Below are positions 2 to 33,502 of a DNA stretch of 34,217 nt, in pieces. The notes under the pieces are model-generated. The model was not told where the DNA came from, made no database searches, and was given only the letters and a program-made list of their open reading frames with translations. This DNA is from an uncultured Saprospiraceae bacterium (GTDB lineage Bacteria; Bacteroidota; Bacteroidia; Chitinophagales; Saprospiraceae). The stretch is taken from NCBI GenBank assembly GCA_937929885.1, contig CALFUQ010000277.1, forward strand, positions 1 to 34,217, read 5' to 3'. Each line of letters opens with the position of its first letter. Position 1 is the stretch's first letter. Both the position numbers and the translations under genes were made by a program.

Positions 2-1843
2 CTAAATGCAAACAGACATATCATAGGTATAGATACCACACAAGTAATAGGTTCATTCCCGTCATTTATTCCTGGGGGGGTTGCAATGTTTGATCAGTAT
101 CAAACCATGATCGAGACTAATTCTGATCTTCTCTTCTTCCAAAGATTAAGAGAGCTTACAGGACAAACCGTTAATGAATATGCAAATGTAAATGGGATAA
201 ATCCTAATGACCTTTCGCTAGATATGTTTTCAGCATCGGAGCTTAATGACTTCGGAATAGTTTCATACTATGGTTACGATTACTTAGGTAACAAGACCTC
301 TAACAGTTCGAACTTCGATGATTTCTTTACAGGTAGAGATGGAGACAGAAGGTCATTTGATGTAGCTCCTGATAATCCTATTTACGGATCATTCTTTATT
401 CAAGATAAATTCTCCTATAAGGATATCATCTTTAGATTAGGGCTGAGGGTAGATTATTATGATGCAAATACCAAAGTACTCATAGACCCGTATTCACTTT
501 ATGAAATTGAAACGGCTGCAGATTTCTTTGCTAGAACTGGTCAAGAACAGCCAACTGCAATAGGGGATGATTACAGAGTATACATTGCAGATGAAGGCTC
601 CAATGAAGTTATTGGCTACAGACTGGGTGAGCAATGGTTTCAACCAAATGGTACAGCAGTATCTAGTGGAGGTGACCTGTTTGGTGGTGGGGTAGTTACG
701 CCCGCACTCGCAGGTGCATCAGAAGGTCGAGAGCTAAATATACAGAGTCCAGATTTTGATCCAAGCACATCGTTTACAGATTATGAGGCACAGATAAATT
801 TTATGCCTAGGCTAGCATTTTCATTCCCTATTTCGGATAATGCTGGATTCTTTGCACACTATGACGTGCTAGTGCAGAGACCTCCTTCAAACACAATCGC
901 AACAGGTAGGAGTTATTTTTACTTCGCTGATCCTAATAGAACACCGAGTGGTAATCCTAATCTGAAACCAGAGAAGACTATAGACTATGAAGTTGGGTTT
1001 CAACAAAAAATAAGTAGCTCATCAGCTATTAAAGTTTCTGCTTATTACAAGGAGTTGAGAGACATGATTCAGAATAGGATATTGACGAATACTTTTCCTG
1101 TTACCCAGTATGACACCTATGACAATATAGATTTTGGAACGATAAAAGGATTCTCTTTTAATTACGACCTACGGAGAACTAGCAATTTTGAATTACAAGC
1201 AAACTACACTTTGCAGTTTGCTGATGGGTCAGGTTCTGATGCTAATTCTTCTCGTGGATTAAATAGTCGCGGGGCAATTAGAACACTGTCAGCACTTAGC
1301 TTTGATGAACGACATAGGATAAATGCGATCCTAGATTACAGGTATGGTTCAGGAGCAAGATATAATGGTCCGAGAATTGGAGACGTTGAGATTTTTGCCA
1401 ATACTGGGCTTAATGTTCAGATTACCGCAGTATCGGGAAGGCCTTATACTCAACGAAGAACGGTTGTTCCTTTTGGAGGTACTGGCTTCGTAGGCGGAAT
1501 CAATGAAGCAAGGTTGCCATGGACGACTAAGATGGATCTGAGGTTGGATAAAAACTTCAAACTGTTTGACAATGGTAACAGGAAACCAATGTTTCTAAAT
1601 GCCTATCTCAGAATACAGAATGTCTTAAACACTCAGAATGTAAGAGCAGTGTACAGCGTATCTGGAGATCCGTTAAACGACGGATACTTACAATCTTCTT
1701 TTGGAGAGGATAGAATATCGCAGGTAGAGGATAATGGGCAAAGTGTAGACAACTTCACGGATGCATATTCATGGAGATTATTAGATGCAGACTTTTACAC
1801 TTTACCTAGAAGAATTTATTTAGGAGCAATTATAGAATTTTAA
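2..1843 (+). CDS. TonB-dependent receptor, C-terminal plug/barrel part (5' partial)
   Basis: The reading frame is open from base 2, so the gene enters from outside the left edge. The ATG at 86 is internal, not the start. What remains is mostly an outer-membrane beta-barrel: alternating aromatic strands, the receptor hallmark GNPNLKPEKT (around 955-985), and a C-terminal residue Phe (IIEF) as in barrels inserted by the BAM machinery. Such receptors import a ligand using TonB energy, or act as surface scaffolds. The N-terminal carboxypeptidase-like and plug parts are missing, so the substrate cannot be guessed. The next gene starts 6 bases after the stop and a PorV-like gene follows, so the three are probably one operon. 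A run of seven G at 74-80 lies in the coding frame. TonB-type receptor is secure; its role is unknown. Confidence 0.9.
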   Translation, partial: LNANRHIIGIDTTQVIGSFPSFIPGGVAMFDQYQTMIETNSDLLFFQRLRELTGQTVNEYANVNGINPNDLSLDMFSASELNDFGIVSYYGYDYLGNKTSNSSNFDDFFTGRDGDRRSFDVAPDNPIYGSFFIQDKFSYKDIIFRLGLRVDYYDANTKVLIDPYSLYEIETAADFFARTGQEQPTAIGDDYRVYIADEGSNEVIGYRLGEQWFQPNGTAVSSGGDLFGGGVVTPALAGASEGRELNIQSPDFDPSTSFTDYEAQINFMPRLAFSFPISDNAGFFAHYDVLVQRPPSNTIATGRSYFYFADPNRTPSGNPNLKPEKTIDYEVGFQQKISSSSAIKVSAYYKELRDMIQNRILTNTFPVTQYDTYDNIDFGTIKGFSFNYDLRRTSNFELQANYTLQFADGSGSDANSSRGLNSRGAIRTLSALSFDERHRINAILDYRYGSGARYNGPRIGDVEIFANTGLNVQITAVSGRPYTQRRTVVPFGGTGFVGGINEARLPWTTKMDLRLDKNFKLFDNGNRKPMFLNAYLRIQNVLNTQNVRAVYSVSGDPLNDGYLQSSFGEDRISQVEDNGQSVDNFTDAYSWRLLDADFYTLPRRIYLGAIIEF

Positions 1844-1849
1844 AATCTG

Positions 1850-4800
1850 ATGAATAAAATGAGATTTATTTACTTAATGCTTTTTCTGTTTGGGTCACAA
1901 ACTATGTTTGCGCATATCAATCCTTTGCGTAAGAAAAAACTTAAGACGGATAGAATCGCAACCATCAGGGAAGAGTGCAGATCAGCAGTAGCTCAGATCG
2001 ATCAAGAGATAAATAATGTAAGAGCAAGACTATTAACTGGAGGTGATGTATGGTGGGATCTTACGGAAGGTAAATATATTGTACCAAAGACACAGCCAGG
2101 AGAGGACGAAGTCTCTTCTATGTTCGCAGCATCTGTATGGTTGGGAGGGTTAGACCCAGTGGGTAATTTAAAAATCGCTGCAGTGGATTATAGGAGCGGG
2201 GGGCAGACTGATTATTATACAGGACCTATCGATCCCAATAGTGGAGCAACTGACTTAGAGGTTTGTCAAGATTGGGATCAGTTCTTTAAAGTGTTAGCAG
2301 TAAATGTAGAGGAGCATAATCAAAACTGGGAATTAGCACAAGCTAGTGGAGAAGCAATAGAAGCGAGTAGTGTGCCAGACGATGTTAGATATTGGCCAGG
2401 CAAAGGGAATCCTTTCTTTGCACAAAAGTTTGAATTTGAGTTGCCTAATACTGGCCAGGGCTTAGGATCATTTTGGGATGAAGACGGCGATGAAAATTAC
2501 GACCCAACGAAAGGAGATTTCCCGATAATAGATATCAGAGGATGTAAGCCAGCTAATAGAGCTGAGGCGAAAGAGATTGTTCCTGATGAGATGATCTTTT
2601 GGATTTATAATGACGCTGGAGGACCCCACACCCTAACGCAAGGGACTCCGATACTTATGGAAGTACAAGTGCAAGCATTTGCTTTCTCTTCTAATGATGA
2701 GATTAATGATATGACCTTTCAGCGGTACAAGTTGATTAATAGAGCGTCATCAGATATTAGAGACTGCTACTTTGCTATGTGGATTGATCCAGATTTAGGT
2801 TGCCATACTGATGATTATTTGGGTTGCGATATTGATAGAAGTTTAGCCTACGTCTATAATGAAGATGCATTAGATGGTCAGAATGGTTGTACTTGCGACG
2901 GTGGTGTAAATACCTACTGTGATGAGGTGCCAATTTTAGGAATAGATTATTTCAGAGGGCCACTAGCACCTAGAAATTTTGATGCAGATGGAAATGCTAC
3001 GATCACTCCGCCTCTGGGCACTGATGGTGATACATTAGTAGAGCTAGGGATGTCATCATTTGTTTATTATAATAACGCGGCGATAGGTGACCCAGATCCT
3101 ACAACAACTGACCCAACGATCGATGTAGAATATTATAACTATTTACGAGGACTATGGAGAGATGGGTCAGCTATCACGTTTGGTGGGGATGGATTTAATC
3201 CAGGTAGTGTAGACTCGGTAAGATATGCTTTCCCAGATGCTCCTAACCAGACTGGATGGTCGATGTGCGAGGCCGATTTGCCATTCGGAGATAGAAGGAT
3301 GTTACAAGCTTCTGGTCCATTTTTGTTAAAACCACAAGCCGTTAACGAATTAATAATCGGAGTAGCATGGGTGCCAGATTTAGATTATCCATGTCCAGAT
3401 ATCTCTAGACTGCTTTTCGCGGATGATCTTGCACAGTCATTATTTGATAATTGTTTTGAAATTAAAGATGGTCCTGATGCACCAGATGTAGATGTGATAG
3501 AATTGGATAGAGAGTTAGTATTTGTTTTGACTAATGATAACATAACATCTAACAATGCATTTGAAGCTTATCAAGAAGAGGATCTTAATCCAGTAGATGC
3601 AGGTTTGGATTCTCTATACCGTTTTGAAGGCTATCAAATTTTCCAGTTGGCTGATGCAAACGTAACAGCCCAAGAATTAAACCTCGTCGATAAGGCAAGG
3701 TTAGTTAGACAGGTAGATATAAAAAATGGTATCGCTAATTTATATAATTGGAAACCAGCACTAGAAGACCCTACACCAAACAATACAGAAATCGTATGGA
3801 CCTTTGAGAAAAAGGTAGAAGCTGCGGACGAAGGGTTGAGCCATACCTTTAGAGTCGACGAGGATGAATTTGCAGAGGGAGACAGGAGAATGATAAATCA
3901 CAAAGAGTACTACTATATGGTACTTGCTTATGCACAAAATAACTGGGCAGAGTTTGATCCATCTGATGGCTTAGGACAGCGATCACCATACTGTGCAGGT
4001 AGAAGAAATATAAAAGTAACGACAGGAGTCCCAAGGCCAATTGTATATGAAAACCAAAATGCAGACTTCGGTGATGGAGCAGTCATAACGAGAATCGCTG
4101 GGCAGGGAGCTGGCACAGTGTTTTTAGATCTTGATGATAGTATGTATGATCAGATACTAGAAGGTACTGCAGATGGGATAGTGAAATATAAAGAAGGAGC
4201 AGGACCACTAGACATAGAAGTTTATAACCCTTTAGAAGTTAAGAATGGAAACTTTAGACTTTCGTTTACAGGAGACTTTAAAGGAGGTACTACTTGTGGC
4301 ATACTACCAGGCGCGAGATGGGTGCTAGAGGATTTAGGGACAGGACAAACGATAGCCTCCGAGACATCTATAGATATCATTAATGAACAAATCATAAGTG
4401 AGTACGGATTTACAATTTCTATAGGCCAGACAGATGACGCAGGAGATAAACTTGATGACTCTAATGGAGTGATAGGAGCCAGGGTAAGCTATCCAGATGC
4501 AGAGACTAATCCATGGTTAGGATTTATTCCCGATGATTCAGGGCCTGTTTATAATTTTTTAAGAACAGCAAGTAATGAAGAAGATAATGAATTAGATCCT
4601 AAGCAAGCTTTTAGTCTGATTGGTGATGCGGCATTTGTACCCTTTGCATTGGCGGATTTTAGATCGGATTTACAGACGATATCACCAGGATGGAAAGATT
4701 TTAATGGAGGAGAAGCATTGAGAAGTAAATCTACGCTTGCAGAACTTAACAACGTAGACATTGTTTTCACAAGTGATAAATCTAAGTGGAGTAGATGTGT

Positions 4801-5884
4801 TATTGTTGAAACATCTAACACGCAATTCAGTGAAGCAGGTTATGAAAATATCGGTAATGTAGATCAGTTTGATCTACGTGATTCGCCTTCGGTAGGACTT
4901 GATGATAGTGATGGTGATGGGAGACCAGATCCTGATGGTGATGGAGTAGGAATGGGTTATTTCCCTGGCTATGCAGTGGATGTAGAGACTGGTGAACGTC
5001 TTAATATATTCTTTGGTGAAAACTCAACTTATAATGATGACTTAGCGGAGTTTATAGAAGGAGGAGGAATTGGAAGTGATATGATGTACAATCCATCGTC
5101 GCAAGCATTTACGGAAGGTGTGCCAGGCGCACCTGTTTCGCTTTGGAATTTTGTGTCTGGAGGTCAGCACCATATTTATGTAACTAGACAAGAGTATGAT
5201 GGATGCGAGCAGATAAGACAGCGACTAGGTAAAAATTTTGTCTTCACCTTTAAACGTGATGCGCTTAAGTTAGTTACGTGGACAGGGATACCGATCTTGC
5301 CTCCAGGTATCAATATGAGATCGTATGCTGACGGTTTAGTGCCAGGAGATGGAATCATAAAGTTAAGAGTAGATAACCCTTATAACAGAGAAACTAATTA
5401 TGGGTTAGGATCTGAACTTTTCTCTTGTGATGCTATAGGTGACTTGCCTATCTACGAGTTTGAGATTGCAGGTAAAGAATCTACAGCACTAGAAGGAGGT
5501 CAAATAGACTCTGCGTTAGCACTGGTAAATGTAGTGCCTAATCCATACTTTGCTTATTCTGAATATGAAACTAGTAGATTAGAAACAGTAGTCAAGATAA
5601 CTAACTTACCAGCTAGAGCAACTGTTACCATCTATAGTCTTGATGGCAAATTCATTAAACAGTTTAAGAGAGACGAACGTGGAGTGCTAACTGATAACAG
5701 GACAAATCCAGGAGTAAGATCTTCTCAGATAATACCTGACATAGAGTGGGACTTAAAAAATAGCAGCGGTATATCTGTGGCAAGTGGTGTGTACTTAATA
5801 CATGTATCAGCACCAGAGTTAGGAGCTGAGAGAACAATTAAATGGTTTGGTATAAATAGGAAATTTGATCCTGCAGGATTGTAA
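1850..5884 (+). CDS. Large exported protein with C-terminal FlgD/T9SS-like domain
   Basis: I do not recognise a named family across the 1344 residues. Residues 1-21 form a signal peptide (basic start, hydrophobic core, cleavage near MFA-H). The mature protein is acidic and rich in Asp, Gly and aromatic residues, typical of extracellular beta-rich proteins. Around residues 1018-1032 is an Asp-rich DSDGDGRPDPDGDG stretch like a thrombospondin type-3 calcium-binding repeat. From about residue 1225 the sequence (NVVPNPY, then TIYSLDGK and ASGVYLIHV) matches the FlgD-like/type IX sorting fold. It is followed by an unusual tail, IKWFGINRKFDPAGL. Its position between a TonB receptor and a PorV/PorQ-like protein suggests surface export or anchoring at the outer membrane. 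That role is inferred. Two Met codons (residues 1 and 4) could start it; I chose the first. Confidence 0.8.
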   Translation: MNKMRFIYLMLFLFGSQTMFAHINPLRKKKLKTDRIATIREECRSAVAQIDQEINNVRARLLTGGDVWWDLTEGKYIVPKTQPGEDEVSSMFAASVWLGGLDPVGNLKIAAVDYRSGGQTDYYTGPIDPNSGATDLEVCQDWDQFFKVLAVNVEEHNQNWELAQASGEAIEASSVPDDVRYWPGKGNPFFAQKFEFELPNTGQGLGSFWDEDGDENYDPTKGDFPIIDIRGCKPANRAEAKEIVPDEMIFWIYNDAGGPHTLTQGTPILMEVQVQAFAFSSNDEINDMTFQRYKLINRASSDIRDCYFAMWIDPDLGCHTDDYLGCDIDRSLAYVYNEDALDGQNGCTCDGGVNTYCDEVPILGIDYFRGPLAPRNFDADGNATITPPLGTDGDTLVELGMSSFVYYNNAAIGDPDPTTTDPTIDVEYYNYLRGLWRDGSAITFGGDGFNPGSVDSVRYAFPDAPNQTGWSMCEADLPFGDRRMLQASGPFLLKPQAVNELIIGVAWVPDLDYPCPDISRLLFADDLAQSLFDNCFEIKDGPDAPDVDVIELDRELVFVLTNDNITSNNAFEAYQEEDLNPVDAGLDSLYRFEGYQIFQLADANVTAQELNLVDKARLVRQVDIKNGIANLYNWKPALEDPTPNNTEIVWTFEKKVEAADEGLSHTFRVDEDEFAEGDRRMINHKEYYYMVLAYAQNNWAEFDPSDGLGQRSPYCAGRRNIKVTTGVPRPIVYENQNADFGDGAVITRIAGQGAGTVFLDLDDSMYDQILEGTADGIVKYKEGAGPLDIEVYNPLEVKNGNFRLSFTGDFKGGTTCGILPGARWVLEDLGTGQTIASETSIDIINEQIISEYGFTISIGQTDDAGDKLDDSNGVIGARVSYPDAETNPWLGFIPDDSGPVYNFLRTASNEEDNELDPKQAFSLIGDAAFVPFALADFRSDLQTISPGWKDFNGGEALRSKSTLAELNNVDIVFTSDKSKWSRCVIVETSNTQFSEAGYENIGNVDQFDLRDSPSVGLDDSDGDGRPDPDGDGVGMGYFPGYAVDVETGERLNIFFGENSTYNDDLAEFIEGGGIGSDMMYNPSSQAFTEGVPGAPVSLWNFVSGGQHHIYVTRQEYDGCEQIRQRLGKNFVFTFKRDALKLVTWTGIPILPPGINMRSYADGLVPGDGIIKLRVDNPYNRETNYGLGSELFSCDAIGDLPIYEFEIAGKESTALEGGQIDSALALVNVVPNPYFAYSEYETSRLETVVKITNLPARATVTIYSLDGKFIKQFKRDERGVLTDNRTNPGVRSSQIIPDIEWDLKNSSGISVASGVYLIHVSAPELGAERTIKWFGINRKFDPAGL

Positions 5885-5895
5885 GAAGTCAAAGA

Positions 5896-6942
5896 ATGAA
5901 AAGAGTTATAACAACAAGTCTGATATTCTTCTTTGCGATTAGCTTAAGCTATGCAGGTAATCCTGACAGACAAGGAGAAGCAGGCGCAGGTGAGTTACTT
6001 TTTAATCCATGGGCTAGGAGTGCTGGATTGCATACGCTTGGTACAGCTTCTATAAGAGGAGTAGAGTCTATGCGATTAAACATCGCTGGGCTCGGAAGGA
6101 TAAATAAAACAGAACTCCTAATTGCAAACACTAGATTATTTACGGGTACAGAGATGCAGCTAAATGCTGTTGGCTTCGCACAAAAGATTGGAGAAAACAG
6201 TGCATTTGGAATAAGTCTTACTTCAGTAGATTTTGGAGAGATACCTGTTACAACTACCCTCCAGCCAGAAGGAACTGGTGGTACATTCTCCCCTAATTTT
6301 TTCCACCTAGGGTTGGGATATTCTTACACCTATGCTAATAAAATTTCTGTTGGATTATTGGTTCGAGGAGTATCAGAGTCTCTGGCAAATGTTTCAGCAT
6401 TTGGTATTGCATTAGATGCTGGAGTTCAATATGTAAGTGGCGAGAAGGAAAATTTTAAATTAGGAATTTCCCTTCGTAATGTGGGATCACCTATGAGATA
6501 CAGTGGAGAAGGGCTGTCTTTCGAAGTAGATAACCCAGGCACAAATGGGGAGTATAAAATCACTTTCGATAGTAGATCAGAAGACTTTGAATTACCATCC
6601 GTTTTGAATATTGGACTTTCGTACGACTACTATTTTGGAGATGATCAGATTATGATCAGAGGACTTGCCAATTTCACCTCTAATTCTTTTTCTCAAGATC
6701 AATTAGGAGTTGGTGGAGAATTATACTTCAAAGATTTTGTAGCACTCAGAGCAGCATACAAAAAAGATATAGGAAGTGTAAATGAAGGTGAGCGCAACGT
6801 ATACTCTGGCTTTGCTGCAGGTATGTCTCTAAACTTACCGCTAAGCAAAGATAGTGATAGAAAAGTAGGTTTTGACTACGCTTATCGGACAACTGATCCA
6901 TTTCGAGGGACACATAATTTCACGGTTAGATTAACCTTATAG
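5896..6942 (+). CDS. PorV/PorQ family outer-membrane protein
   Basis: A 348-residue protein with a clear signal peptide (residues 1-20, ending SYAG). The body has FadL-like PorV/PorQ features: the early motif NPWARSAGLHTLGTA, the N-I-A-G-L segment where the family has NPAGL, and repeated Gly/aromatic beta strands up to a terminal TVRLTL strand. In type IX secretion, PorV binds the sorting domain of cargo and carries it from the SprA translocon to the attachment complex; PorQ paralogues have related roles. This copy is more likely a paralogue serving the upstream 1344-residue protein than the housekeeping PorV, because it starts 11 bases after that gene. No cargo can be proven from sequence alone. 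The family call is firm and the partner is inferred. Confidence 0.82.
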   Translation: MKRVITTSLIFFFAISLSYAGNPDRQGEAGAGELLFNPWARSAGLHTLGTASIRGVESMRLNIAGLGRINKTELLIANTRLFTGTEMQLNAVGFAQKIGENSAFGISLTSVDFGEIPVTTTLQPEGTGGTFSPNFFHLGLGYSYTYANKISVGLLVRGVSESLANVSAFGIALDAGVQYVSGEKENFKLGISLRNVGSPMRYSGEGLSFEVDNPGTNGEYKITFDSRSEDFELPSVLNIGLSYDYYFGDDQIMIRGLANFTSNSFSQDQLGVGGELYFKDFVALRAAYKKDIGSVNEGERNVYSGFAAGMSLNLPLSKDSDRKVGFDYAYRTTDPFRGTHNFTVRLTL

Positions 6943-7098: not shown

Positions 7099-7569
7099 AT
7101 GGGTATTTCCTATATGACACAAGAGGGGTATGATAAAATTATGGCAGATTTAGATCAACTTAAATCTGTTGAAAGAGCACAGATTGCTAAGGAGATTTCT
7201 GAGGCGAGAGATAAGGGAGATTTATCTGAGAACGCAGAGTACCATGCTGCAAAAGATGCGCAAGGCTTATTAGAGGCTAAAATCAATAAGCTGGAGCTTC
7301 AACTTGCAGATTCTAAGATTATAGATGAGAGTAATATAGATACTTCGCAAGTTTCAGTATTAACTACTGTCACAATCAAGAACAGAAAGAACAATAAACA
7401 AGTTGCCTATAAATTAGTTTCTGAAGCAGAAGCGGATCTCAAACTAAAAAAGATATCAGTCACCTCACCAATTGGGTCTGGGTTGCTCGGTAAGAAGGTT
7501 GGAGAAATAGCAGAGGTAACCGTTCCTACAGGAATAATAGAATTTGAAATTATTTCTATAGATATCTAA
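7099..7569 (+). CDS. greA: Transcription elongation factor GreA
   Basis: A 156-residue protein, the usual GreA length. Residues 1-75 form the antiparallel coiled coil that enters the RNA polymerase secondary channel. The tip motif ARDKGDLSENAEYH carries the two acidic residues, Asp41 and Glu44, that hold the catalytic Mg and stimulate cleavage of backtracked RNA. Residues from about 80 on are the FKBP-like C-terminal domain (SPIGSGLLGKKVGE is conserved). Its stop codon shares a base with the start of the HIT gene (TAATG at 7567-7571), so the two are translationally coupled. The 156-base leader (6943-7098) is AT-rich with no consensus promoter that I can defend. Confidence 0.97.
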   Translation: MGISYMTQEGYDKIMADLDQLKSVERAQIAKEISEARDKGDLSENAEYHAAKDAQGLLEAKINKLELQLADSKIIDESNIDTSQVSVLTTVTIKNRKNNKQVAYKLVSEAEADLKLKKISVTSPIGSGLLGKKVGEIAEVTVPTGIIEFEIISIDI

Positions 7570-7961
7570 TGCCAAGCATATTCACAAGCATAGTCAATGG
7601 AGAGATACCCTGCTACAAAGTAGCAGAGTCGGAGACGTGCTTAGCTTTCTTAGATATCAATCCACTGACTAAAGGGCATACGTTAGTCATCCCAAAGTTA
7701 GAAGTAGATTATTTCTATGATCTTACTGATGAGGTCTTAAGTGATGTAATGGTCTTTTCTAAAAAGGTAGCGAAGGCTATCCAAAAAGTTATTCCTTGTG
7801 AAAGGGTAGGAGTAAGCGTGATTGGGTTAGAGGTCCCTCACGCTCATGTACACCTAATCCCTTTCCATAAAATGTCTGAGCTGAGTTTCGCAAATCCAAA
7901 GCTGAAATTCTCCCATGAGGAATTTACTGCCATCGCAAACTCGATTTCTGCGAATATTTGA
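7569..7961 (+). CDS. HIT family nucleotide-binding hydrolase
   Basis: A 130-residue histidine-triad protein of the Hint/HIT branch. The triad is seen as HAHVHLI with His91, His93 and His95, and the N-terminal half has the usual IFTSIVNGEIPCYKV and LDINPLTKGHTLVIPK blocks. Family members hydrolyse nucleoside phosphoramidates, AMP-lysine or dinucleoside polyphosphates in the cytoplasm. The real substrate here is unknown. The start codon overlaps the greA stop (TAATG), so it is probably made from the same mRNA. Pairing with greA recurs in Bacteroidota as far as I know, but its meaning is unclear. Length and motif are complete and nothing is degenerate. Confidence 0.95.
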   Translation: MPSIFTSIVNGEIPCYKVAESETCLAFLDINPLTKGHTLVIPKLEVDYFYDLTDEVLSDVMVFSKKVAKAIQKVIPCERVGVSVIGLEVPHAHVHLIPFHKMSELSFANPKLKFSHEEFTAIANSISANI

Positions 7962-26234: not shown

Positions 26235-28253
26235 TTATACTTTCTTTACGAATACTATTTTTTCTTTAGATTTTTCTACCGCCATATCGTAGAATTTTTT
26301 TACCGCTTCATAGTAAGTTGGCGATATAGTCGGCTGATTAATTTTGAAGCTATAGTGAATCTGGATTTTGCCTTCTAGTGCTGTTGGTGTAAAACTAAAT
26401 AGACCCATTTTCTCAGGCAAGCTTACTATTGCTTTCTCAGGTACAGATTCTACCTCATATCCTTCTGGTATATGCACTACTACAATAATGTTTTCAGTAG
26501 ACTTATTAGGATAAAATATAGGATACTCTCTACGCTCTGCGGTAAACGGATTTTCACTTATTCCATTTCCTAAGATCGCATCTATATATATTTTTTCACC
26601 GATACTTTCTGAGCATCCCTCCATAGTATATGATTCTGTGGTTGCTATTGATCCAGCTTTTCCATCTTTTACTTCTATTGATTCGTAAGCTAGGTTTTCG
26701 TTTGATGTCTCAAGCTCATCCATCCATTCGTCTACTGTCCCAGCTTTAGTAAAATTGGATCTGTAATAGTTTGCGCTCACTCCTCCAAATTTTTGTTGTG
26801 TATTGCACACAAGGTTCAGGTTTTGATCTATCGTTGCATCTACTATTTTTGATATGGATGCTTGGTTTGGATTAGTAATATTTATAGTGATACCTTTTTC
26901 TGCGTTGAGTAATATTCCTTCTAAGTTGATTGCTCTCAGTGGTAGTTGTCCAGGAAGAATATTCTTGTCAGTAGCATCTAAGAAAATCGTTTTTTCATCT
27001 ACTATAGCTGCTGCGTATACATAGTTAAGATCACTTAAGATTGGGTAAGTAGTATTAAGTACCCCTGAGTCTCTTGTTTTAGTCACGATAGGGTAGACTT
27101 CTACACCTGCTTTTCTAAGTGTATTTATAAGAAGTAAATTTATTTCGGACGCTGTACCTTCTCCTGTTTTTATTAAGGACTTAATACCTTTATCTAGCCC
27201 GAGTCCTATTTGCCCATTATAGCTATAATTAGATTGTATATGTTGGTAGACGTCTACTAATGCCTCAGCTGGTTCCTTTGATTTTGATTGATCTATAATC
27301 ACACCTAAATCTTTATGCTTATGTTTTAACTGCTTTCCAAAATCATTATCATCATGCAGCAGTTTCGCTATCTGATCCCATGTTTGTGTATACAGTTGAT
27401 ATGTTTGCCCTGGCCAAGAAGTTGATTCTAACTCAAAAGAAATTCCGCTTCTAAATGAATTTAAATTCGTTACATACTTTTCTGCTTGAATGGACGGAGT
27501 GTTGAATTGAGTTATGATGGTGATCATTCCTTGATAATCTACTTTCTCATTAAAAAACTTGTTCTTCACTATATTTGGGTTATTGCTTACATCTCTTGTA
27601 TAGCTAAAAGTGACGAATCTAGATTTTTGTGATTCTTGTACGTCAAGGGGTAGAGCACCTGTGCTATTTGCTCTATAGGTATAATACTCTGGATGCTCAA
27701 AACGAAAAAAGGTTTCATTGCACGGGATGCCGTGTTGGAAGTACCATCTGTCTACCTGGAATACATAAGGTGAAGTAACCTTATACTTATACTCTATGAT
27801 GCTACCATCTTTTACATTAGGCAAGGCAAATTTAGTCTTAGATCTATTTTTAGATACTTTCTCTTTGAAGATATTCTTTTTGTCAAGCTTTGACTCTTTG
27901 ACTTTATCAGCTTCAAGGTTGTAAGTAACTGCTTTGATGCTACTCACGTTTTCTTCATCTTTGGATGGTGTGTATAGAGACACATTCACATTTGCATAGG
28001 AATCATCAGTAGCATCGTATATCTTAATCTTCTTATATACTTCTGTGATTAACATAAATTGCTTTTTGCTCTTATTGTACTCCATATAATGGTTTCCCTC
28101 TTGGTATAAGATTGCAGCTTTTGCATCTTCCTCTAGGGAGTGTGATTTAGCCATTAATTCCTCTTTTGTAACTTTGCCAAATTTTGATTTCTGAGCTATA
28201 GACTGATTAATAGCGATGGTTAAGAGAACGAGTAATAGAATAAAATTTTTCAT
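26235..28253 (-). CDS. DUF3857 protein with degenerate transglutaminase domain
   Basis: A 672-residue exported protein with a signal peptide at 1-20 ending SIA-Q. Residues about 45-260 form the DUF3857 beta domain. About 320-430 correspond to a transglutaminase-like fold, but the catalytic cysteine position is lost: where the active relative has GDC, this has GEGTASEINLLL (residues 364-375). The Asp of LDATDK (Asp426) is present. From about 540 on is a DUF2569-type or beta domain with PEGYEVESVPEK. It starts 1 base after the stop of the 633-residue relative, so the pair is translated together. Loss of the cysteine suggests a binding or structural role. The family function is unknown. Confidence 0.88.
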   Translation of the reverse strand: MKNFILLLVLLTIAINQSIAQKSKFGKVTKEELMAKSHSLEEDAKAAILYQEGNHYMEYNKSKKQFMLITEVYKKIKIYDATDDSYANVNVSLYTPSKDEENVSSIKAVTYNLEADKVKESKLDKKNIFKEKVSKNRSKTKFALPNVKDGSIIEYKYKVTSPYVFQVDRWYFQHGIPCNETFFRFEHPEYYTYRANSTGALPLDVQESQKSRFVTFSYTRDVSNNPNIVKNKFFNEKVDYQGMITIITQFNTPSIQAEKYVTNLNSFRSGISFELESTSWPGQTYQLYTQTWDQIAKLLHDDNDFGKQLKHKHKDLGVIIDQSKSKEPAEALVDVYQHIQSNYSYNGQIGLGLDKGIKSLIKTGEGTASEINLLLINTLRKAGVEVYPIVTKTRDSGVLNTTYPILSDLNYVYAAAIVDEKTIFLDATDKNILPGQLPLRAINLEGILLNAEKGITINITNPNQASISKIVDATIDQNLNLVCNTQQKFGGVSANYYRSNFTKAGTVDEWMDELETSNENLAYESIEVKDGKAGSIATTESYTMEGCSESIGEKIYIDAILGNGISENPFTAERREYPIFYPNKSTENIIVVVHIPEGYEVESVPEKAIVSLPEKMGLFSFTPTALEGKIQIHYSFKINQPTISPTYYEAVKKFYDMAVEKSKEKIVFVKKV

Positions 28254-28254
28254 G

Positions 28255-30156
28255 TTACTTGATTTTATTGAGAACGATTTTGCGATTGTCTAGTTTTAAT
28301 ATTGTCTTCAAAAACTCTCTGTACTCCTTATATTTTTCTTTTCCGTAATTCCCCTTTCTCGATATGTATTTTCTATTGTAGTATATTGAATGATCACCTT
28401 TTTGCTCTAGTGTAACTTCATAGTTTCCAAATTCACTTTCAATCATTACATCCTCAGGTATATGCTGAAATATCATATCCTTCGGAACATTAAATACCAT
28501 AGAATCTTGATAGCTAGCAGATCGACTTATGACGAATGGTGATTTACGATTACGGACCCTGTCAGGTGCAGATATTCTATTAGGAAATAAATTTGGTGTA
28601 AAGATTATATCCTTCCCTATTGCCTGAGCGAAACCGTCACATGACAGGGTCAGCTTTTCTACAAATTTCGATTCCTTCTTTTGATCTTCGAATTCGTACC
28701 CGTTTATTGTAGTACTTCCTAGATGATTGTATTCACTAATAAATTCTTGCTTAATATCTTTTTCGTTTTGGGATTGCATGTACTGCCTCTTATAAAAGAT
28801 TCCTGAGTGACTCTTTTTTAAAACAATACTAATATTCCCCTCCTCATTGATATTAATCTCTCCTTCCTGTTTTCTTATACTATTAGCTTCATCATAGGTG
28901 GTTGTGTGTTGTATTTTACCTCCTGATGGACTTATGACTAATAAGTCTCGGTCATCCGTAAAATCTCCGATGTAACCGAATGGTGCATCTTGAGACGTGC
29001 ATTCTACCCATATGCTATCTGCGCCATTTGGGTCAGGGACGCAGAGTATAACATGATTCCCTTGCATGCCGTGAAAATCATGTTTGATATTTTCAATCTG
29101 GTTACCTGCATATATTGGACAATAAAACGACTCAATATCTAATACACTTAATAATGCATGTGTATAGTTTGTCAATCCTTTACAATCGCCATAACCTAAC
29201 TCGTGGACTTCTGATGCACTAGTCGGTTTCCATCCTCCTATCCCTAATTGTATGCTGATGTAGCGACTTCTTTGTTGTACAAATTCATAAACTTTTTTAG
29301 CCTTTTCTAAAGGGTCGGTTATGTCTTTAGTAAGTAGTTTGATTTCGGCAACAATGTTGCTCGGTAATATTTTTTGTGCTCTGAGTAAGTTATCATAATA
29401 CCATTTGCCGAATTCTGCCCAGTTAGCAGCAGAACCGTCTACTCCTTCTAGATGAAAGTGATCTAGTGCTACAGAAAGGAATGGAGTTAACTCCTGCAAA
29501 GGAGGGCTTAATGTTTCATGTTTTCTAGCTGGTATATTTTCTAATTGAACAGTAAAGCCACCTGTTATCTCTGATTTAGAAATATCATAATCTTTAAAAT
29601 TAAGCTCTGATACTCTCATGCCTAATTGCTCAGGACAACTAATAGTGTAACTACTTTTTTGTACAGATTTATAGTAGCCAGATATTGGTTGCCATCTAGG
29701 AATAAATACAGTGTTAGGGGTCTCAATCGAATAAGTTACACTCATTGTATAAGGATAATCATTGGTGGGGTGCTCATACATTAATACCCTATTATCACCA
29801 TGAAAATTAGTACCAGTGGCACTGTAGTCTTGAAAATGTTTCTTTTTTAATTGCTTGATTACTGCTCCACGATCATCATATACAGTAGCAGTGAGAGACT
29901 TGATTTTATGAGACTTTGAGTAACTGATGTAGAGTGGTTGCTCTCCATTTATATTTAGTATAGAAACCGTCTCAGCTACCGTATAAGTATAAGATGATTG
30001 CGACTTAATGTCAATTTTAATAGCCTGATTTCGTACTACCAGATTGGCATCTTGTTGTAATTCGATTGGTATATCGTCGATACTATAGTTGTATTGACCA
30101 GATACAGATGTCGGTAATATTAAAAGTACGTACAAGAAGTTACGCATAAAGGACAT
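28255..30156 (-). CDS. DUF3857/transglutaminase-like exported protein (Cys present)
   Basis: A 633-residue exported protein. The signal peptide is at about 1-20 (FLYVLLILPTSVSG-Q); Met1 and Met4 are both possible starts. Residues about 40-230 form the DUF3857 domain. About 260-395 form a transglutaminase-like domain with an apparently intact site: Cys325 in YGDCKGLTNY, His368 in GNHVILCV, and an acidic partner in WVECTSQD. A C-terminal beta domain follows. Such enzymes may cleave or cross-link peptides at the envelope. It is upstream of, and coupled to, the cysteine-less relative. The start is followed upstream by a gap with one possible promoter box at 30221-30228. Function is inferred. Confidence 0.9.
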   Translation of the reverse strand: MSFMRNFLYVLLILPTSVSGQYNYSIDDIPIELQQDANLVVRNQAIKIDIKSQSSYTYTVAETVSILNINGEQPLYISYSKSHKIKSLTATVYDDRGAVIKQLKKKHFQDYSATGTNFHGDNRVLMYEHPTNDYPYTMSVTYSIETPNTVFIPRWQPISGYYKSVQKSSYTISCPEQLGMRVSELNFKDYDISKSEITGGFTVQLENIPARKHETLSPPLQELTPFLSVALDHFHLEGVDGSAANWAEFGKWYYDNLLRAQKILPSNIVAEIKLLTKDITDPLEKAKKVYEFVQQRSRYISIQLGIGGWKPTSASEVHELGYGDCKGLTNYTHALLSVLDIESFYCPIYAGNQIENIKHDFHGMQGNHVILCVPDPNGADSIWVECTSQDAPFGYIGDFTDDRDLLVISPSGGKIQHTTTYDEANSIRKQEGEININEEGNISIVLKKSHSGIFYKRQYMQSQNEKDIKQEFISEYNHLGSTTINGYEFEDQKKESKFVEKLTLSCDGFAQAIGKDIIFTPNLFPNRISAPDRVRNRKSPFVISRSASYQDSMVFNVPKDMIFQHIPEDVMIESEFGNYEVTLEQKGDHSIYYNRKYISRKGNYGKEKYKEYREFLKTILKLDNRKIVLNKIK

Positions 30157-31183: not shown

Positions 31184-31969
31184 TTAAGCGCTCTTTTTCT
31201 TAGCTGCATCTATGCTAGCTTTGAGAGCCGACATGATATCAACCACTGGTTTTTCTTCTTCTCCGTCAGATATGCTTACGATTTCTTTCCCTTCTATCTT
31301 ACTGTTGACGAGTTCCATGAGAGCATCTTTATATCTATCCTCAAAATCAACTTTATCGAAAGTAGTAGATAAAGATTCTACTAATGTTTCTGCAAGCTTC
31401 ATTTCACTCTCATTCACTTCTGCTGATCCTATATCTGGTACGTCCTTTACATCTCGAACTTCATACGGGAATCTGAGTTTGTACATGATGAGTGCGTCTT
31501 CGTGGGGAGTTATCAAGACTACATCCTCTTTGTCACGAAGGATTATTCTACCTATACCAGCTTTCTTTGTTTTTTTAAGAACATTGGAGAATAGGGCAAA
31601 AGTTTTCTGAGCAATCTCTCCATTAGGACCTACAAAATAAATAGCCTCAAAGCGAGTAGGGTGTACCTCATCGATGTCCACGAATGCCTCTATATCAATC
31701 GCCCGTGTACTTTTTAATTTAATATTGGCTAGTTCCTCTGGTTTGATAACTACATATTGGTCTGGTTCGTACTCATAACCTTTTACAATATCCCCATAGG
31801 GCACTTCTTTATCACAACTTTTACAAACTTTTTTATAACCTATTCGGCTATTATCTTCGTTGTGTAGCTGCTTAAAACTGATGTTATTCTTTTTTTCTAC
31901 AGCGCTAAAAACCTGTATAGGTATGGTTACTAACGAAAACCTGATGTGTCCTTTCCAAACTGATCTCAT
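31184..31969 (-). CDS. ku: Bacterial Ku protein (non-homologous end joining)
   Basis: A 261-residue Ku of usual bacterial length. The N-terminal Ku core is clear: RSVWKGHIRFSLVTIPIQVF, then VCKSCDKEVPYGDIVKGYEY and the QYVVIKPEELANIKLKSTRAI block. The C-terminus ends in a Lys-rich tail (AKKKSA), common in Ku proteins that interact with LigD or DNA. As a homodimer it binds double-strand ends and recruits ligase. LigD is not in this window. It is first in an operon with the EEP-family gene, and its start is 198 bases from the divergent DUF1508 gene. Classification is firm. Confidence 0.96.
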   Translation of the reverse strand: MRSVWKGHIRFSLVTIPIQVFSAVEKKNNISFKQLHNEDNSRIGYKKVCKSCDKEVPYGDIVKGYEYEPDQYVVIKPEELANIKLKSTRAIDIEAFVDIDEVHPTRFEAIYFVGPNGEIAQKTFALFSNVLKKTKKAGIGRIILRDKEDVVLITPHEDALIMYKLRFPYEVRDVKDVPDIGSAEVNESEMKLAETLVESLSTTFDKVDFEDRYKDALMELVNSKIEGKEIVSISDGEEEKPVVDIMSALKASIDAAKKKSA

Positions 31970-32167: not shown

Positions 32168-33502
32168 ATGAGCGATCACAACCAAGACGAGTATTTGGAT
32201 CCTTCCGAATATCTAAAACACCCCGCTGATGATGCTGGATTTAACAAATTCGAAGACAACGGGTCCTATTATTTTTCTAAGCTCGATGGAGATCAAGTAA
32301 TCTTCATGAGTCAGGGATACACCTCTGAGGCAGGTAGAGACAATGGAATCGAATCTGTGAAGAAAAACATGGCTCTAAGTGAGCGTTATGTAGCTGAGGA
32401 ATACGATGGTAGATGGTACCTAAGTCTTAAAGCTGGTAACCGACAAGAGATTGCAGTAAGTCCGTTGTTTGCGACTAAGGCTGAAGTAGAGGCAATGATT
32501 CCTGGTGGAGGAGGTTCATCAGCTAGTACAGGAACTAGTGGAGTTGCAGCAAGTAGTGGCAGTGCAGGAGGTACTGTTTCATCTGGTGCAAGTTCTTCAG
32601 GTAAGAGAGCTTCTACTGATGGAAGTTCTAAGATTGCCCCTCTAGTTGCTGGTTCTGGTATTTTAGTAGGGTTCTTAGGAAAAACAGAAATAGCAGATTC
32701 TTCTAGTTCTATCACTAAAGTAAAAGATACAAAGACGAGATACTACACAGACGATAGTTATCTCCCAATGAGTAAATACAATGATAACATTGCTAATAAG
32801 TCGACGATAGATGGTGACTTCATTCAGTTTTCTGAAGGAGGAAAATTCTACTGGGGTCTTTTAGATAGCGAAGGAAAAATGGCGATAAGAAGTGAAGGCT
32901 ATTCTTCTGCAGCAGATAGAGACGGTTCTGTAGCTGAGGTATCTAAAGGTAAATGGCAAGGATCTAACTATAGCATCCTAGAGACGAGAGAAGGCAAGTA
33001 TTATGTACTACTCAAAGACGGAAGTCATAATGAGATTGGAAGGAGTGTAGCGTTTAGCTCTAGAGCTGAGGCTGTAGGTTTTGTACCTGAGACTTCTGTC
33101 ACATATCAGACGATAGCAAGTGGCGGAGGAGCTAAGTGGGAGATGGGTAGTAAAGCAGCTGCAGCGATGGCAGCCGCAAGCCAGTCTAGCTTCGTAGCTA
33201 AGGCAGGCGGAGCAGCAGCGACTGCGGCAGCAACAACTTTTAAGGCAGCACCAGTGATTGCACCGATAGCTACTAAAGCAGCGGCAGCAGCAGGGTGGGG
33301 TCTTGTGCCATGGGCAGCAGGATTGTTATTGTTACCCCTTTTATTTTTGCTCAAGCCAGTGCCTAGTTTGGTGCCACTAGCTCCAGTGATAGCTAAGGTA
33401 GTACCACCACCACCACCAGTAATACCACCGCCGATACCACCCCCGCCGGCTAAGGTCCAGTTAGTTGGGCCAAAGGTAGGTCCTAAGGTGTCTGGGTTTT
33501 AA
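32168..33502 (+). CDS. Tandem DUF1508 (YegP-like) protein with membrane segment and Pro-rich tail
   Basis: A 444-residue protein of mixed design. Two DUF1508 double units are visible: residues about 25-111 (VIFMSQGYTSEAGRDNGIES) and about 213-307 (MAIRSEGYSSAADRDGSVAE), each with a weaker second half. Between them is a Gly/Ser-rich linker (112-155). After residue 320 comes an Ala-rich stretch (330-377), one hydrophobic membrane-like segment (about 378-396), and a Pro-rich tail (413-428, PPPPPVIPPPIPPPP). It ends in VGPKVGPKVSGF. DUF1508 has no firm function, though YegP is linked to stress. I see no signal peptide, so topology is unclear. A terminator follows. Related proteins may carry more C-terminal sequence, so truncation is possible. 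Confidence 0.82.
   Translation: MSDHNQDEYLDPSEYLKHPADDAGFNKFEDNGSYYFSKLDGDQVIFMSQGYTSEAGRDNGIESVKKNMALSERYVAEEYDGRWYLSLKAGNRQEIAVSPLFATKAEVEAMIPGGGGSSASTGTSGVAASSGSAGGTVSSGASSSGKRASTDGSSKIAPLVAGSGILVGFLGKTEIADSSSSITKVKDTKTRYYTDDSYLPMSKYNDNIANKSTIDGDFIQFSEGGKFYWGLLDSEGKMAIRSEGYSSAADRDGSVAEVSKGKWQGSNYSILETREGKYYVLLKDGSHNEIGRSVAFSSRAEAVGFVPETSVTYQTIASGGGAKWEMGSKAAAAMAAASQSSFVAKAGGAAATAAATTFKAAPVIAPIATKAAAAAGWGLVPWAAGLLLLPLLFLLKPVPSLVPLAPVIAKVVPPPPPVIPPPIPPPPAKVQLVGPKVGPKVSGF

Follow-up and report, generated by a model that had tools for sequence, protein, structure and literature searches.

A conserved three-gene outer-membrane locus of Saprospiraceae that appears to encode a surface machine based on the type IX secretion system

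Gene content of the locus

The window analyzed here, a stretch of 34,217 nucleotides, is the entire contig G000:C277 of a Saprospiraceae bin. Three genes on the + strand open it: the C-terminal 613 residues, or barrel part, of a TonB-dependent receptor (2..1843), a large exported protein of 1344 aa (1850..5884), and a PorV/PorQ-family barrel of 348 aa (5896..6942). By ORF coordinates, the gaps between them are 6 and 11 bases, exactly the spacings and layout described in an earlier sequence-only reading of this DNA. The receptor frame is open on its 5' side, where it is cut off by the start of the contig and thus of the window. The receptor part in the window matches PF14905 (Pfam, E = 6e-16). 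Intact orthologues are about 1200–1280 aa long, and the one scanned (L002) carries CarboxypepD_reg and Plug domains; the assignment as a TonB-dependent receptor is based on the barrel in the window and the plug in this orthologue.

The large protein begins with a signal-peptide-like stretch and was assigned no family in the Pfam scan, and its sequence profiles found no match in the PDB. The predicted fold of residues 22–1221 is confident (pLDDT 87.4, pTM 0.73). The PDB matches of this body in Foldseek were weak and confined to small parts (best E = 3e-4), most of them beta-sandwich parts of sugar-active enzymes; they were too weak for this likeness to be kept as a functional claim, and contact of the body with carbohydrate is possible. 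The N-terminal module (residues 41–545) is common to other T9SS-type proteins. A family of T9SS-type proteins of about 550–930 aa with this module (SSIFAGAVWLGG...DFWPGPL) occurs at loci L205–L222, with up to three members in tandem at L212. An extra copy of the large protein lies 3' of the barrel gene in L018, L024, L029, L030, L045, L050, L072, L075, and L077, and a third copy in L030; some of the extra copies are shortened or split. In such loci, one barrel may serve several cargos.

The Ig/FlgD-like C-terminal domain (5528..5881), the last ~118 residues, is the best-conserved part of the large protein, with a mean column identity of 73%. Within it, the C-terminal stretch ERTIKWFGINRKFDPAGL (5825..5881) includes an extension past the usual last strand, and the last 19 residues reach a mean column identity of 82%, compared with 47–69% in the other large mature regions before the domain, so the "atypical tail" noticed in the sequence-only reading is real and conserved. 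Its motifs (PNP, Ig-like strands, GVYLIHV) come in the same order as in type A T9SS signals. TIGR04183 gave 16.5 bits for the whole large protein and 25.2 bits for the isolated domain against a cut-off of 23, PF18962 (Por_Secre_tail) gave 12.4 bits against a cut-off of 27, and the match to FlgD_ig (PF13860) was also below the Pfam cut-off. The FlgD/T9SS-like end proposed earlier appears related to type A signals; its Pfam matches are sub-threshold, and TIGR04183 passes on the isolated domain alone. No type B domain (TIGR04131/PF13585) was matched in the large protein, and the locus does not classify as a type B cargo with a PorP/SprF partner.

The nearest named relatives of the domain are attachment-complex proteins: the C-terminal part of the PorZ model was matched by 27 of 27 C-terminal domains and that of PorU by 24 of 27. 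PorZ and PorU are T9SS proteins that keep their C-terminal domain and are held on PorQ and PorV, respectively (PMC10202324, PMC5562754). A search of the C-terminal-domain profile against the PDB yielded only a sub-threshold PorZ chain (5m11, E = 0.65), ranked below chance matches. Within its own genome, the domain is unique. The extension after the last strand reads FDPSGL in Saprospiraceae; the other families of the order show RPxDLDxF instead, and other classes have either xxQLNVY or QKQIQRF. A second group of trios lacks the extension, ending at TFAIIK or similar. Proteins of about 700 aa with ends like the trio domain (TGKFLIIK), without a receptor or barrel, are present in other classes (L188, L192, L197, L200, L203); two of them were tested and matched no named family, and all five loci were left out of the trio counts.

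The earlier identification of a PorV/PorQ-type protein directly 3' of the large protein is borne out by NF033709, which the barrel matches with 121 bits (cut-off 90), as do 55 of 55 members of barrel set A2. The barrel scores below the cut-offs of the named equivalogs for PorV (NF033710, 53/250 bits), PorQ (NF033711, 64/220), and PorV2 (NF052325, 24.5/325), and a weak match to the PorP family is seen in 24 of 55 barrels. According to NCBI equivalog scores, the five PorV/PorQ-family members of the genome are two PorV, one PorQ, one PorV2, and the window barrel; two full PorV equivalogs stand in tandem at G000:C321 (L180). The barrel was modeled with 14 strands, and in the PDB the model is most similar to the PorV chains 8gl6_F and 6h3i_F, followed by FadL and BamG-type chains. 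By FadL topology, we take the loop that joins strands 3 and 4 to be extracellular; it is more conserved than the strands (0.79 vs 0.69), suggesting a partner contact there. The mature N-terminus of the barrel (GNPDRQGEAGA..., 5956..6030) is invariant, with a mean column identity of 90%, and recalls the conserved barrel N-terminus of BamG (PMC12578637). As a BamG signature it was rejected as not diagnostic; a weaker form, RxGxxxAxxLL, occurs in the PorV-like barrels of other classes.

The trio is followed by GreA-like and HIT-like genes (7099–7961). Elsewhere in the window lie, on the - strand, two neighboring genes of the DUF3857/transglutaminase-like and DUF3858 type, one base apart (26235–30156) and a bacterial Ku protein (31184–31969; TIGR02772, 286 bits) with no obvious ligase partner in the window, as well as a protein with three DUF1508 stretches and an alanine/proline-rich end (PPPPPVIPPPIPPPP; 32168–33502).

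Conservation of the trio in Bacteroidota

The three-gene order was sought in relatives and its copies counted. The Saprospiraceae set comprised 79 records from named genomes, 70 of them independent and with both flanks. In 69 of these 70, the receptor, large protein, and PorV/PorQ barrel follow one another in this order on one strand, and the gaps have medians of 61 and 82 bases. In L072, the one deviating record, it is the second tandem copy that breaks the pattern, and the first copy has a barrel behind it. Neither unlinking of the three genes nor loss of the C-terminal domain was encountered in these relatives. The large protein was present in 55 of 61 genomes searched, its own included. 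Across the order, the C-terminal domain was detected in 132 of 199 genomes, nearly always as a single copy, and families f19 and f21 mostly lack it, while in the phylum sample 142 of 296 genomes matched its profile.

Beyond Saprospiraceae, at least 12 more families of the order have the trio, and it was also found in other classes of Bacteroidota. Profiles of the three proteins were run against every reading frame of 60 distant regions. There, the receptor precedes and the barrel follows the large protein, except for regions cut by contig ends, the ~700 aa proteins of the L192 type, and the loci L155 and L185, which have the large protein without a receptor or barrel. An additional reading frame lies between the receptor and large protein in L146, and several genomes carry two or three trios. 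Among 55 Saprospiraceae loci, 44 have GreA and 41 have HIT 3' of the trio, and both genes also follow it through the order. In other classes, both are gone and the trio is kept, at varying positions and with several copies in a genome, so that the linkage of the trio exceeds the background of gene order.

SprA (PF14349) is encoded in the genome under study (E = 2e-123) and was detected in every trio genome among 80 tested save one bin that is 57% complete. Many genomes encode SprA but lack the trio, which suggests that the trio depends on the T9SS and not the reverse.

Partnership of the large protein and the barrel

Trees of the receptor, body, C-terminal domain, and barrel from 68 trios gave distance correlations of 0.87–0.95; linked inheritance alone could yield such congruence. 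Copies were also re-paired within each of ten genomes that carry two or three trios; the true pairing was the best of 9216 within-genome pairings for each of five gene pairs, by a small margin over the best alternative (e.g., 0.8762 vs 0.8751). As far as trees can tell, this shows that the sets move as units, from which binding does not follow.

As a paralogue control, 21 copies of the N-terminal module in shorter proteins from the same families were examined at 18 loci, with flanks of several kb where the contig allowed. Nearly all copies that reach their end have ordinary type A-like tails; a weak match to the special C-terminal domain was seen in L206, in a broken frame. No PorV-like or receptor gene was found beside any of the 21 copies in the fetched flanks, which indicates that the partners go not with the N-terminal module but with what follows it, either the middle part or the special C-terminal domain. 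A barrel stands directly 3' of the cargo in 69 of 70 trios, compared with 0 of 21 module copies with other tails.

In L016, the large protein and barrel genes lie in one frame, 12 bases apart, and could be modeled jointly by reading the stop as serine. The joined chain consisted of the C-terminal domain, a linker including the signal peptide of the barrel, and the barrel, and its alignment had 6 joined and 72 separate rows. For this one pair, AlphaFold2 returned a mean pLDDT of 85.7 and a pTM of 0.84, with the tail at low confidence. As the pTM with an unplaced C-terminal domain was estimated to be at most ~0.72–0.76, the domain is probably docked on the barrel in this model, which is support for binding rather than proof of it.

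A C-terminal OmpA domain is fused to the trio barrel in three genomes (L167:3981-6146, L173:9070-10836, L174:3086-5287). As predicted from the domain content, this fusion would tie the barrel, and thus the surface set, to peptidoglycan. PorE links PorP to peptidoglycan, and the same role has been proposed for some SprF-like shuttles (PMC9143113, PMC12618676).

The sequence-only reading had also proposed that the three genes form a dedicated partner set for exporting or anchoring the large protein, with the receptor as energizer or docking site. For the large protein and the barrel, this is supported by gene order, trees, paralogues, OmpA fusions, and the joint model. The receptor is linked to the large protein as tightly as the barrel is, in both trio records and trees, and this linkage is the whole basis for counting it as a partner. 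A role as energizer of export is unsupported, since it is the PorLM/GldLM motor that powers the T9SS (PMC10202324); a putative role in docking or uptake is more plausible.

Proposed function and relation to known systems

We propose, with a probability of roughly 0.6, that the large protein is a T9SS cargo with a private shuttle that also serves as its permanent anchor, and that the receptor belongs to the assembly. The signal peptide would carry the large protein across the inner membrane, and the Ig-like C-terminal domain would route it through the SprA translocon, where the neighboring barrel, and not the general shuttle PorV, would collect it; both the export and this hand-over are extrapolated from what is known of the family. 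The C-terminal domain would stay uncut, held by its extra conserved tail and the private barrel. Such retention without cleavage may be expected from the resemblance to PorZ and PorU, the tail, and the OmpA fusions, and binding of the domain to the barrel is consistent with the joint model. The barrel would end as a permanent outer-membrane anchor, like PorQ for PorZ and SprF/PorP for type B proteins, and the receptor would join the assembly, most likely as an uptake channel covered or fed by the large protein.

It is also conceivable that uptake comes first, with the large protein acting as the capture lid of the receptor in a SusCD-like manner, the FadL-like barrel as a channel for hydrophobic or sugar nutrients, and an ordinary PorV delivering the lid. 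The tight linkage of the receptor, the likeness of the barrel to FadL next after PorV, and the weak matches of the body to sugar-enzyme beta-sandwich folds would all fit such a scheme. However, the nearest relatives of the barrel in both sequence and fold are T9SS shuttles, the OmpA fusion is better explained by anchoring than by transport, and one extracellular loop of the barrel is more conserved than its strands, and we therefore consider this scheme unlikely. Quite improbable is the scenario in which PorV carries and PorU cuts the large protein as an ordinary type A cargo, with the barrel and receptor being separate envelope genes of the same operon: in its favor, the isolated C-terminal domain barely clears the TIGR04183 cut-off and the genome has its own PorV, but the conserved tail is atypical for type A, the paralogues with ordinary tails lack the partners, and the trio is retained across classes. 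Chance spacing or general conservation of gene order without functional meaning, to which the retention of GreA and HIT 3' of the trio might point, has a very low probability and is contradicted by the distant loci, where the trio persists without these neighbors.

The proposed private shuttle and anchor has its closest parallel in the type B/SprF pairs, SprB/SprF and Fjoh_3952/3951/3950 of F. johnsoniae and PG1035/PorP/PorE of P. gingivalis, in which the cargo gene is likewise directly followed by its own FadL-like barrel gene and the barrel has been proposed as shuttle and permanent anchor (PMC12618676, PMC9143113). Unlike these pairs, the trio has an Ig/FlgD-like C-terminal domain nearer type A than type B, a barrel of the PorV/PorQ rather than the PorP/SprF family, and a TonB-dependent receptor as a constant third member, and the OmpA-like link to peptidoglycan, often a separate PorE in the type B systems, is fused to the barrel in the three genomes. 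In the PorZ-PorQ and PorU-PorV pairs of the attachment complex, an uncleaved type A-like domain sits on a PorV/PorQ-family barrel (PMC5562754, PMC10202324). However, PorZ and PorU act for all cargos and have no tie to a receptor, and the large protein lacks the body of either and comes from a genome with its own PorV and PorQ. SusCD pairs resemble the trio in that a TonB-dependent receptor with CarboxypepD_reg adjoins the gene of a large surface protein, but this protein is a lipoprotein in SusCD and is apparently delivered by the T9SS, with its own barrel partner, in the trio. In BamG-BamH of the Bacteroidota BAM complex, a FadL-like barrel with a similarly conserved N-terminus binds a surface protein by its outer loops (PMC12578637); the trio has no link to BamA, and by fold score its barrel lies closer to PorV than to BamG.

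Type A signals have all been said to use the general shuttle PorV, with private shuttles assigned to type B cargos (PMC12618676), and no paper describing a private shuttle of the PorV/PorQ family that forms a trio with a receptor was found in the open-licence literature. Kept together in almost all relatives and in other classes, the three genes appear to be an old, undescribed surface machine based on the T9SS. The trio suggests that PorV/PorQ-family barrels are also used as private shuttles and anchors, with a single copy in almost all genomes of the family and several copies in other parts of the phylum. Tentatively, and at somewhat below even odds, it may represent a phylum-wide, undescribed class of T9SS complexes composed of a receptor, a surface protein delivered by the T9SS whose C-terminal domain is extended and retained, and a private PorV/PorQ-family shuttle-anchor that is sometimes tied to peptidoglycan by a fused OmpA domain. 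If true, such a class would parallel, within the T9SS, both SusCD and the type B/SprF system and would give functions to unnamed barrels and to large proteins without Pfam domains, and the trio makes the retention or release of T9SS cargo a testable question.
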